The notes beneath the pieces are model-generated. The model had not been told where the DNA came from, ran no database searches, and saw only the letters and a list, made by a program, of their open reading frames with translations. From Bdellovibrionales bacterium Ga0074139 (GTDB lineage: Bacteria; Bdellovibrionota; Bdellovibrionia; Bdellovibrionales; Bdellovibrionaceae), in assembly GCA_001464795.1 (NCBI GenBank), contig LNEB01000008.1:62001-126000 (forward strand): a DNA stretch of 64,000 nt, read 5' to 3'. Positions 18,875 through 22,087 of the stretch are shown in pieces; the stretch's first letter is position 1; every line of letters begins with the position of its first letter. The position numbers were made by a program, and so were the translations under genes.

Positions 18875-19744
18875 CTAATCCGACCTAAGCTTTGCAAAAA
18901 TAAGTGTGTCCCGGTACTCACCCTGCTCGATACATTCTTGGCGCAAAGTTCCTTCTAATGTGTAGCCATTTTTTTGTGGTAGATTGGCTGATCGAATATT
19001 CGCTGATGAACATCTGATTTCAATTCGGTTAAATCCAAGACCCCATAGAACTTCTTCAATCAACTTGGCCGCTTCACTGACATAACCTTGGCCTTCATAT
19101 TTTCCATTGATCCAGTATCCAAGTTCTGCCCGGTTGTGAGCCCAAGCAATATTATGGACACCGAAGCCCCCCATGTAGATGCCATCAATAGTATAAATTC
19201 CGTAATCAAAAAGTGAAGCCTCTAACCACCATTTTGCAGCTAATTTTAAATACTCTAATGAATCATCTTTAGATTTTGTTGAATCCACCCACGGTAAAAA
19301 TTTTCTAAGTCGCTTGCGGTCTTCATCAATACTAGCAAACATAGTCCCAGCCAGATCTTCATTATGCTTTTTTAAAATTATACGCTTTCCTTTAATTTCA
19401 AAGGGAAAGGATTTTTTTAATTCAGCTGGCAATTGAAAAGGTGTGGGAAAAGAAAACACTTGGCTGACAGCCTCTAAATTCAAAGCACCATAGATGTGAG
19501 GAAAATCTTCACCGGATTCGTACAGGTCTTCAAACTTAACGGGTGATTGAAGCTGATTTAAATCAATTTCCAATAAAACAAGATTGTTCTGATTTTTAAA
19601 ATTAAATTCGGCCACATCAATAATTTGATGGGCCATAGAGCAATGGATAAACCCCTCTTTATTAAAAGAGGGTGGAGTGTAAATTCCTTTGGCTTTAGCC
19701 ATCTCCCAATCTGTTTTTGCTGTGATGTGCAGAATCTTATTCAT
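18875..19744 (-). CDS. DUF952-GNAT acetyltransferase fusion protein
   Basis: A 289-residue soluble protein of two parts. Residues 1-110 match DUF952: LHITAKTDWE near the start, EGFIHCSM around 30-37 and a FPHIYGALNL segment. Residues 115-289 are a RimJ/RimL-type N-acetyltransferase with the family phrases GYWINGKYEGQGYVSEA (acetyl-CoA loop), NRIEIRCSSANIRSANLPQKNGY and a final EGEYRD-like turn (EQGEYRDTLIFAKL). RimJ-class enzymes acetylate protein N-termini or small amines. DUF952 is an ADP-ribosyltransferase-like fold of unknown role in bacteria. The two domains are normally separate genes, so the fusion is unusual. Confidence 0.8.
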   Translation of the reverse strand: MNKILHITAKTDWEMAKAKGIYTPPSFNKEGFIHCSMAHQIIDVAEFNFKNQNNLVLLEIDLNQLQSPVKFEDLYESGEDFPHIYGALNLEAVSQVFSFPTPFQLPAELKKSFPFEIKGKRIILKKHNEDLAGTMFASIDEDRKRLRKFLPWVDSTKSKDDSLEYLKLAAKWWLEASLFDYGIYTIDGIYMGGFGVHNIAWAHNRAELGYWINGKYEGQGYVSEAAKLIEEVLWGLGFNRIEIRCSSANIRSANLPQKNGYTLEGTLRQECIEQGEYRDTLIFAKLRSD

Positions 19745-19774: not shown

Positions 19775-20617
19775 ATGTCAAAGATCCCCCAGGTGTCGAT
19801 CATTATTCCTGTTTACAACCGCACACACCCCCTGGTCAGAGCTCTCGAGTCTTTAAAAAAACAAACTTTTACAGACTTTGAAATCTTGGTGGTAGATGAC
19901 CATTCTGAAATTGATTTGAAGCCCTATTTGGAACCCTTTGATCTCAGGTATTTAAAAACAAGCGGGAAAGGTGTGAGTGCAGCAAGAAATACAGGTGTTC
20001 GTGCTGCCAAATCAAATTTAATAGCCTTTCTTGATTCTGATGATGAATGGCTACCCACTAAGCTTGAAAAACAAATTAATTACTTATCCATAAACAGTTC
20101 CATTTCCATTGTTCACACTAACGAAGTCTGGATCCGGGAACAAAAAGTTATTAAACAAAATTCTAAACAGCAAAAGTTGGGCGGCCGACTCTTTGCTGAA
20201 TTCACCAAGCAATGCTTGATCGCCTCCTCAAGTGTATTAATTAGAAAATCACTATTCAATCAAGTCGGTCTTTTTGATGAAAGCTTTCCCGTTTGTGAAG
20301 ATTTTGATCTTTGGCTACGAATTGCAGCCTCATATGAAATTGGCTTTTTAGAGGAAGAGTTAATCATCAAGCACGGGGGCCATGAGGATCAGCTGTCTAT
20401 GAAATTTCATTCCATGGATTTATGGCGAGCCCGGGCTTTAGTGAAGCATCTTAACAATCCAGACTTAACCTTGATTCAGCAAACTGCACTTCTTGAAAGT
20501 ATAAAAACAAAATGTGAAATACTACTCAAAGGTTTTCAGAAGCATCAAAATTTTGAAAACATTCATGAGGTGGAACTTTACTTAGAGCGATGCGCTGGCA
20601 CAGTGATTGCAAAATAA
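19775..20617 (+). CDS. Family 2 glycosyltransferase
   Basis: A 280-residue soluble GT-A enzyme. The N-terminus carries the family 2 nucleotide-sugar motifs: VSIIIPVYNR (7-16), VVDDHSE (about 37-43), AARNTGVRAAKSN (about 69-81) and the metal-binding DSDDEW (about 88-93). A later ED motif in FPVCEDFDLWLR, near residue 175, should be the catalytic base region. It probably adds a sugar to a surface polysaccharide or lipid, but the acceptor is unknown. The 3' end of the gene contains the sigma-54 promoter of the next gene. Confidence 0.88.
   Translation: MSKIPQVSIIIPVYNRTHPLVRALESLKKQTFTDFEILVVDDHSEIDLKPYLEPFDLRYLKTSGKGVSAARNTGVRAAKSNLIAFLDSDDEWLPTKLEKQINYLSINSSISIVHTNEVWIREQKVIKQNSKQQKLGGRLFAEFTKQCLIASSSVLIRKSLFNQVGLFDESFPVCEDFDLWLRIAASYEIGFLEEELIIKHGGHEDQLSMKFHSMDLWRARALVKHLNNPDLTLIQQTALLESIKTKCEILLKGFQKHQNFENIHEVELYLERCAGTVIAK
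20596..20611 (+). promoter_or_regulatory. Sigma-54 (RpoN) promoter, perfect -24/-12 elements
   Basis: TGGCAC (20596-20601), five bases, then TTGCA (20607-20611), giving the GG-N10-GC geometry of sigma-54 promoters. It lies in the last codons of the glycosyltransferase gene. Transcription would start about 20622, sixteen bases ahead of the copper-storage-like gene ATG and just before its GGGGG ribosome-binding site. Confidence 0.7.
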
Positions 20618-20637
20618 GTCTTCACCTTGGGGGTAAA

Positions 20638-21030
20638 ATGGATGCCAATATAAACGTCGCTGAAAGTATTCAAGTTCGATCATTTATAAAAAACATGACT
20701 GATGAAATGCAAAAGTGCATACAAAATTGCACACGGTGTGCACAGGTCTGTGAACAAACCATTCAACATTGTTTAAAAGAAGGTGGCTCGCATGCTGAAA
20801 TCGGCCACATTCGCTTACTGCAGGATTGTGCCGATATTTGTACAACTTCGGCTAGGTTCATGCTGAGAGATTCCCCACGTCATTCAAAAACTTGTGGTGT
20901 TTGTGCCGACGCCTGCTTATCTTGCGCCGAGGCCTGTGAGAAAATAAGTGATGATGAAATCATGCAAATGTGTGCCGTGACCTGCCGGGATTGTGCAGAG
21001 ACTTGCAAAAAAATGAGTCAGGTGCACTAA
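20638..21030 (+). CDS. Four-helix-bundle copper-storage protein (Csp-like, DUF326 family)
   Basis: A 130-residue protein with 16 Cys, mostly in CxxC or CxxxC spacing along predicted helices (for example CIQNCTRCAQVC, CGVCADACLSCAEAC and CAVTCRDCAETC). This is the pattern of Csp copper-storage proteins, whose Cys line the core of a four-helix bundle and bind many Cu(I) ions. There is no signal peptide, so it resembles the cytosolic Csp3 type. The ATG at 20638 is chosen over an ATG 48 bases upstream that lies inside the preceding gene; TTGGGGG precedes it. A MerR-type regulator gene follows. Metal identity is inferred from the family. Confidence 0.88.
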   Translation: MDANINVAESIQVRSFIKNMTDEMQKCIQNCTRCAQVCEQTIQHCLKEGGSHAEIGHIRLLQDCADICTTSARFMLRDSPRHSKTCGVCADACLSCAEACEKISDDEIMQMCAVTCRDCAETCKKMSQVH

Positions 21031-21053: not shown

Positions 21054-21084
21054 TTGACCTTGCCCTTGGGGTAAACTTTATCCT
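21054..21084 (+). promoter_or_regulatory. MerR-type promoter with 19-bp spacer
   Basis: A -35 TTGACC (21054-21059) and -10 TATCCT (21079-21084) are separated by 19 bases, the overlong spacing that MerR-family activators untwist. The spacer begins with CTTGCCCTTGGGG, close to the left half of CueR/HmrR operators. It directs transcription of the MerR fusion gene from about 21091, ten bases ahead of the ATG, so autoregulation is likely. Confidence 0.65.
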
Positions 21085-21100: not shown

Positions 21101-22087
21101 ATGAAGAATTGGAATACGATCGGTCAATTTTCAAAAAAAGTGGGAATGTCTTCCAAGGCACTCAGACTTTATGAAAAATTGCAGCTTATTAAATCTCATG
21201 CTCGTGGTGAAAATGGATACCGTTATTACCATGATGATCAGATAGAATTAGCAATGCGGTTGAATGAATTCAAAAATCTGGGCTTCACCTTGGCAGAAAT
21301 TAAGTCACTGTTACACGTGGATAAGCAACTCAGCCGTCAGTTGATTGCTGAGTCCATGCAAAAACGACTGATTCTGATTTCTCAGCAAGTTGAAAAGCTC
21401 AGCTCACAAAAAATCCAAATAAAAAAAATTCTGACCTCCTTGAATAAAAAAACAGAGCCTCTACAGGCCGAACAAAGGAGAGTCATCATGAGTTTATTTG
21501 GAAAAGTCTTTATTGCAGTGACAGGTTGTGACGGTCATGAAAAAACGGCTGAAAATATTCAGGCCCATTTTAAAAATGCGGGCCAAAAGATTAGTATTCA
21601 CACATGGCATGAAAACTTCATAATTCCTGAAGCAAAACCCTTTATTTTGATTATCAAAGAAGTAGATCTTAAATCAGAAAAAATTAAACATCTCAAGCCT
21701 GATGTGATCGTCATCACCAAACTGGGTGAACATTCTAAAGCAACTCAAAAAAATTACTTAAATTTATTTTCTCACATAGGCCCGCACGTGAACACCATCA
21801 TCAACGCTGATGACAGGTCCTCTGTGGAATTAGCTGGTGAGTCTTTGATTAAAAAGGGAAGAATTTTTTATTTTTCGAAAAACAAAGCCCTTATCCCCCA
21901 GATTAAAAACATCGGTGGTGTGGTCAGTGACGGTGAAGAGCTTGAAATTTACGGCTTTAATTTGCAACCAGGTCCTATTCAGTTAAGTTTTAAAAAAATC
22001 ATGACCTTTGATGAAGAAGTGGCCTGGCTGTCTTCCCTGGCGTCGGTCATGACTGTTGGCTTTGATAAAAATCACCTGAACGGCTGA
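21101..22087 (+). CDS. MerR-family regulator fused to a degenerate Mur-ligase-like domain
   Basis: A 328-residue protein. Residues 1-70 are a MerR winged helix (TIGQFSKKVGMSSKALRLYEK at the start, NGYRYYHDDQ at 38-47). Residues 75-125 are the dimerisation coiled coil. Residues 130-328 resemble the central ATPase domain of Mur ligases or the cyanophycin-synthetase C-terminus: a P-loop-like TGCDGHEKT (141-149), VIVITKLGEHS (202-212) and INADD (234-238) in the right order and spacing. The P-loop Lys is replaced (canonical TGTDGKTTT), so ligase activity is unlikely; a ligand-sensing role is inferred. CueR-type metal-binding Cys are absent. An internal ATG with a strong ribosome-binding site lies exactly at the domain boundary. 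Confidence 0.78.
   Translation: MKNWNTIGQFSKKVGMSSKALRLYEKLQLIKSHARGENGYRYYHDDQIELAMRLNEFKNLGFTLAEIKSLLHVDKQLSRQLIAESMQKRLILISQQVEKLSSQKIQIKKILTSLNKKTEPLQAEQRRVIMSLFGKVFIAVTGCDGHEKTAENIQAHFKNAGQKISIHTWHENFIIPEAKPFILIIKEVDLKSEKIKHLKPDVIVITKLGEHSKATQKNYLNLFSHIGPHVNTIINADDRSSVELAGESLIKKGRIFYFSKNKALIPQIKNIGGVVSDGEELEIYGFNLQPGPIQLSFKKIMTFDEEVAWLSSLASVMTVGFDKNHLNG
21474..21490 (+). promoter_or_regulatory. Internal ribosome-binding site and ATG at the MerR/Mur-like domain boundary
   Basis: AAAGGAG (21474-21480), seven bases, then ATG (21488-21490), in frame with the fusion gene at codon 130. The downstream product would be a free 199-residue Mur-like domain. The match and spacing are as good as at any real start in the window. 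Confidence 0.5.

Follow-up and report, generated by a model that had tools for sequence, protein, structure and literature searches.

The intact open reading frame at 21101-22087 (+) of the window, the 64,000-nucleotide stretch of Bdellovibrionales bacterium Ga0074139 DNA that was analysed, encodes a protein of 328 amino acids in which a MerR-type DNA-binding domain is joined to a catalytically dead central domain of MurD (UDP-MurNAc-L-Ala--D-Glu ligase). This protein is referred to as MerR-Mur. In the explanation that we prefer, to which we give a probability of roughly one half, MerR-Mur would be a TipA-like autogenous sensor and trap whose bait is an inactive part of the MurD of its own cell. 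The features on which this reading is built, and the related fusions, are listed in Table 1.

Table 1. Features of the MerR-Mur gene and its surroundings, and loci of the sister MerR fusions. Positions without a locus name refer to the window.
Feature	Residues	Position	Strand	Basis or remark
Csp-like DUF326 protein, three repeats		20590-21030	+	Likelier start is an internal ATG near 20638
MerR-type promoter/operator		21054-21084	+	-35 TTGACC (21054-21059), 19-bp spacer with imperfect dyad, -10 TATCCT (21079-21084), 16 nt to ATG
MerR winged helix-turn-helix DNA-binding domain	1-71	21101-21313	+	PF13411 E 1.2e-13, PF00376 E 1.8e-12
Predicted long dimerisation helix/coiled coil	79-115	21335-21445	+	AlphaFold model, partly low confidence
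Predicted internal start		21475-21490	+	AAGGAGA (21475-21481), ATG (21488-21490, Met130); gives 199-aa isoform, the Mur domain alone
Catalytically dead MurD-derived central domain	135-328	21503-22084	+	MurD match, Foldseek, VIA-align, hhalign, bit scores
Degenerate P-loop TGCDGHEKT in place of TGTNGKTSV	141-149	21521-21547	+	Ortholog alignment
Segment common to fusion and Bdellovibrionales MurD, TIINADD..FYFSKN..L..QI..IGGVVSDG..	232-282	21794-21946	+	53% consensus identity
MerR + Lon substrate-binding domain, 361 aa		L042 6242-7327	+	PF02190 E 3e-24; promoter TTGACC-19-TTACCT
MerR + degenerate DNA polymerase III alpha pieces (PF07733, PF17657)		L049 4660-6213; L050 4374-5861; L051 4074-5585; L052 4761-6251; L053 5430-6935	-; -; -; -; +	

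The first-pass annotation, made from the letters of the window, had described an N-terminal MerR winged helix plus coiled coil followed by a Mur-ligase central domain. The MerR part was confirmed, with the Pfam models MerR_1, MerR and MerR-DNA-bind matching residues 6-108, PF13411 and PF00376 above gathering score for the N-terminal winged helix-turn-helix, as in the MerR family, and a long helix after it in the AlphaFold model that is of low confidence in parts. The motifs quoted for the remainder of the protein were found at the residues given for them: TGCDGHEKT at 141-149, LGEHS at 208-212, NADD at 235-238 and LASVMTVGF at 313-321. The C-terminal half had no Pfam match above family cut-offs.

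The MurD of the same genome was the best match of this C-terminal half (31% over residues 135-283, E 9.8e-16), and hhalign of the domain against MurD gave a probability of 99.4 and an E value of 9e-22. An AlphaFold model for which the fusion family alone was the input reached a pLDDT of about 90 over residues 135-328. Foldseek with this model gave top matches that were all Mur-type proteins (E 1e-8), and VIA-align to the central domains of CphA, MurD, MurC, MurE and MurF gave Z scores of 17.8-20.8 and an rmsd of 2.1-3.1 over 160-189 residues. A profile search against PDB sequences alone was uninformative, and it was the fold comparison that settled the Mur identity. Residues 135-328 have the Mur-ligase central-domain fold by three independent tests that far exceed chance, and the assignment made at first pass is thus borne out both by profile and by predicted structure. 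The fold matches also included 8r6s_Q and 8xzv_J, which we take to be the MurE-like subunit of plastid-encoded RNA polymerase. There, too, a Mur-ligase fold has been recruited into transcription, but as a polymerase subunit without a MerR domain and not as a DNA-binding regulator.

Judged by its sequence, the domain descends specifically from the MurD of Bdellovibrionales. It scored 63-86 bits against MurD of Bdellovibrionales families, whereas no MurD from the rest of the phylum exceeded 34 bits. Every fusion fell into one group (100/100) of a maximum-likelihood tree, and this group clustered with the Bdellovibrionales MurDs to the exclusion of the remaining MurDs (100/96), its attachment point lying on a long branch. 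Fusions were present in 19 of 144 class genomes, from three families of Bdellovibrionales, and a search at E 1e-24 that covered 369 genomes of this phylum gave none outside those families. Since the fusions are restricted to these families, fall into one group in the tree and carry a MurD domain of the type found in this order, a single capture of the central piece of MurD by a MerR gene of the Bdellovibrionales lineage is the most likely origin. A phage origin was rejected as no relative was confirmed in viral contigs, and a plasmid origin as the matches listed covered the MerR domain alone, about a quarter of the query. In an anti-phage library the best match was that of the MerR domain to mad1, followed by a weak match to LeoA. 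A search of the open-access literature gave no account of a MerR-Mur fusion.

The domain is a Mur homolog, yet no Mur ligase. H184 and K199 of MurD (E. coli, counted from Met) belong to the Mg/carbamate region, while the P-loop lysine and the SGxHNxxN motif make phosphate and adenine contacts. In the alignment the Mg/carbamate region is gone, and the SGxHNxxN motif and both outer Mur domains, the N-terminal UDP-binding and the C-terminal ligase domain, are lost, leaving an open reading frame that consists of MerR and central domain only. The replacement of the P-loop lysine, reported at first pass for the protein from the window, holds for every ortholog aligned: the residue is H, L or I, the motif reads TGxx[GDN][LHI] for TGTNGKT, and the GxxGK[ST] of Mur ligases is absent from the MerR-Mur proteins. 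MerR-Mur thus shares with MurD the fold, the descent and the NADD..FYFS..QI..IGG segment of the Bdellovibrionales enzyme, but differs by the lack of these domains and ligands and by being joined to a DNA-binding domain. Because the P-loop lysine is replaced and the other ATP and Mg ligands are gone, we discarded ATPase or ligase activity as a candidate function, and an ATPase is very unlikely from the residues present. The earlier suggestion that the fold had become a ligand sensor instead of an ATPase accordingly keeps its negative half, and a sensor-type role is plausible.

Consensus identity between the fusions and MurD was 53% in residues 232-282, compared to 11-30% in other parts. Within the fusions these residues had a mean conservation of 70% and included invariant positions. 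The same segment was found to be the most conserved 45-aa span of Bdellovibrionales MurD (0.93) compared to 0.39 in other MurDs, and this is the widest conservation gap anywhere along MurD. In the MurD of the window's own genome (L002 928-2316 (-)) it lies in residues 217-268, and the sequence NADDNAVVELARDPxVQRGRIFYFSRKxxLEPQIMNIGG is hyperconserved among Bdellovibrionales MurDs, without conservation in other MurDs. Synonymous variation in the segment was normal, as elsewhere in the gene, so selection acts at the protein level, and a DNA- or RNA-level cause was ruled out. Genomes that lack the fusion showed the same degree of conservation in this segment of MurD. The fusion is hence not the cause of that conservation, which fits better with an endogenous partner than with a drug. 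These data suggest a lineage-specific binding surface on MurD that is mimicked by the fusion. The window's own genome carries a second MurD-family ligase (G000:C15:172123-173361; TIGR01087 over cut-off, 281 bits) beside the canonical 462-aa MurD.

The gene is preceded by a MerR-type promoter in all 18 orthologs examined, with the arrangement TTGACC-19 bp-xAxxxT, an imperfect dyad in the spacer and 46-48 bp from the -35 element to the ATG; several of them have a weak -10 element. Spacers of 19-20 bp mark MerR-regulated promoters (PMC9909328), and the dyad within a 19-bp spacer in every ortholog is in agreement with membership of the MerR family. A genome-wide scan with a degenerate pattern allowing two mismatches, which leaves targets with at least three mismatches outside its reach, gave this operator as the sole match in 12 of the 18 genomes, that of the window included. 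Two of the extra matches in the remaining genomes were located directly before sister MerR-DnaE genes (G007, G026), and another one in G007 precedes a different MerR gene. As a near-unique operator lies before its own gene, the protein most likely controls itself, and we regard autoregulation as very likely from the promoter sequences. No further gene seems to be under this operator in most genomes at two mismatches or fewer.

Met130 was kept in all full-length members aligned and follows AGG AGA (Arg126-Arg127) at a good Shine-Dalgarno spacing. Of 18 orthologs, 15 have AGGAG ahead of Met130 and three have the weaker AGGA or GAGG; AGGAG is present upstream of just 4 of the 243 internal ATGs in the window. 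Arginine codons at the internal Shine-Dalgarno were AGR in 34 of 34 cases, compared to 52 of 215 at all other places in these genes (Fisher p 1e-18, a value that is indicative as the sequences are related). Three Bdellovibrio-genus genomes each have two copies of a 16S 3' end with CCTCC; the exact anti-Shine-Dalgarno string was not found in the draft genome of the window. The predicted short form (130-328) begins where the structured Mur domain begins in the AlphaFold model. The conserved internal Shine-Dalgarno and ATG therefore predict a free Mur-domain form, as in TipA and AlbA, and we consider it probable that this isoform is produced from Met130.

The N-terminal half of MerR-Mur is closely related to that of two sister types of MerR protein, which carry pieces of DnaE or Lon in place of MurD. 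In the 144 genomes its close relatives were of the MurD, DnaE and Lon effector types together with two shorter proteins, and the remaining matches were mostly ordinary short MerR proteins. In the genomes searched the DnaE piece matched full-length DnaE-size proteins weakly (E 6e-7 at best), while the Lon piece matched Lon-size proteins at an E value of about 5e-14. A MerR-type promoter was located directly before each sister gene examined. The internal Shine-Dalgarno and ATG were also present in the DnaE-type sisters, and the single Lon-type sister had no clear or strong internal Shine-Dalgarno. A single-sequence AlphaFold model of the DnaE-type effector had a pLDDT of 36 and was left out of the evidence.

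TipA and AlbA are reported to regulate their own genes and to yield two in-frame products (PMC7762955, PMC6078987): the full-length protein acts as inducer of its gene, and the effector domain made alone traps the drug. MerR-Mur shares with the TipA class (TipAL/TipAS, SkgA, Mta, AlbA) the MerR winged helix-turn-helix with coiled coil and the autogenous MerR-type promoter, here read from the DNA alone. A second in-frame product, as in the TipA class, is predicted for MerR-Mur from its conserved internal Shine-Dalgarno and ATG. The effector differs, being a helical TipAS domain (PF07739) in the TipA class and a MurD-derived alpha/beta domain in MerR-Mur, where Pfam gave no match to TipAS and the Mur fold takes its place. 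The best-supported reading is that MerR-Mur works like TipA but stands outside the TipA class since the TipAS domain is absent.

We propose that a MerR-Mur dimer would occupy the promoter, with its 19-bp spacer, from which it is itself expressed, and that ligand binding by the dead MurD central domain would realign the promoter and turn the gene on. From two starts on one mRNA the cell would obtain the full-length regulator (1-328) and the free Mur-domain form (130-328), and the latter, in excess, would bind the same ligand as the regulator and thereby titrate it. Autoregulation and the short isoform are the steps for which the sequences argue strongly. Candidate ligands are an endogenous partner, an allosteric ligand or an inhibitor (a drug, or a competitor or phage product) targeting the NADD..IGGAV surface. 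Because the bait keeps this surface of MurD, the ligand would probably also bind the MurD of these bacteria; we see the odds of such a shared ligand as evenly balanced. Titration by the short form as its function is a more tentative proposal, for which the odds are slightly unfavourable.

Regulon activation is a common mode among MerR proteins, and MerR-Mur might be an ordinary activator whose Mur domain, with a fold that comes from a UDP-MurNAc- and ATP-binding enzyme, senses a small metabolite (a nucleotide or peptidoglycan precursor) and which acts on distant genes via weaker operators, beyond the mismatch limit of our scan. However, most genomes (12 of 18) have a single operator within that limit, the gene has no conserved neighbour, and the adenine and phosphate contacts (P-loop lysine, SGxHNxxN) and the UDP-binding N-domain are gone. 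We consider this rather unlikely. The retention of exactly the lineage-specific MurD segment, the predicted free isoform and the lack of another operator in most genomes would also suit a free Mur domain that acts on MurD itself, competing for or blocking the conserved segment or its partner and so tuning peptidoglycan synthesis, with the MerR half as a dose meter only. The patchy distribution (19 of 144 class genomes, and an empty locus in a relative) is unusual for a protein that regulates an essential enzyme, and parallel roles would be required of MerR-DnaE and MerR-Lon; such action on MurD is therefore improbable. The Mur domain might also serve as an inert module for dimerisation or stability that has drifted since the fusion. 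Most of the domain is indeed just 11-30% identical to the MurD consensus, but residues 232-282 include invariant positions and have a mean conservation of 70%, and together with the conserved internal start this makes such a module very improbable.

The first-pass annotation had noted an adjacent copper-storage gene and speculated that the CDGHE stretch could bind metal. A Csp-like DUF326 gene is in fact located next to MerR-Mur, and the top scores of the N-domain were to the ZntR, CueR and MerR models, in line with a copper or metal sensor for this gene. The scores lay far below the metal-MerR equivalog cut-offs, however, none of which was reached (57.9 compared to 147.4 bits for the CueR model), and the metal-ligand cysteines of CueR and ZntR are lacking. 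The Cys and His of CDGHE are not conserved (C/Y/V/T/I and H/L/I), Cys143 is the sole cysteine, and the operator sits downstream of csp and is directed into the MerR-Mur gene itself. None of the 14 other neighbourhood loci examined had a Csp-like gene, with csp adjoining MerR-Mur in the window only, and the copper idea was therefore dropped; it is largely refuted and retains next to no likelihood. The operator of CueR has TTGACC and a 19-bp spacer, and MerR-Mur is like CueR and ZntR in N-terminal domain and operator layout but has a large enzyme-derived effector and no metal-binding Cys loop.

If MerR-Mur is a sensor and trap with a MurD bait, the idea behind TipA, that the effector domain is itself the remedy, would no longer be limited to a specialised drug-binding fold but would extend to a part taken over from an enzyme of the cell itself, and a single lineage would have applied this design to three different housekeeping enzymes. 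Bdellovibrionota may in that case possess a family of modular bait switches that regulate themselves, in which MerR is joined to inactive parts of essential housekeeping enzymes (MurD, DnaE, Lon). Each bait would also be made free, and the switches would sense and mop up agents that target these enzymes (toxins, antibiotics or phage proteins), comparable to the integrated decoys of plant immune receptors. This generalisation is speculative and less likely than not. The analysis also points to a hyperconserved lineage-specific MurD surface in predatory-type bacteria, for whose partner the natural bait could be used as a pull-down reagent.

In the genus that has the largest number of carriers, MerR-Mur lies near the origin between atpE and a convergent phosphomannomutase-like gene, names that were assigned by eye from translations. 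The two genes adjoin in the relative G004, with MerR-Mur absent between them. In three other genera MerR-Mur follows toxin-antitoxin-type genes (HigB and an HTH protein, a ParE-like and an HTH protein, Fic/DOC), which are located directly ahead of it at L066 301-847, L159 6150-6765 and L160 6900-7343. The window itself also encodes, at 18875-19744 (-), a DUF952 domain joined to a GNAT acetyltransferase domain (PF06108 and PF13302).
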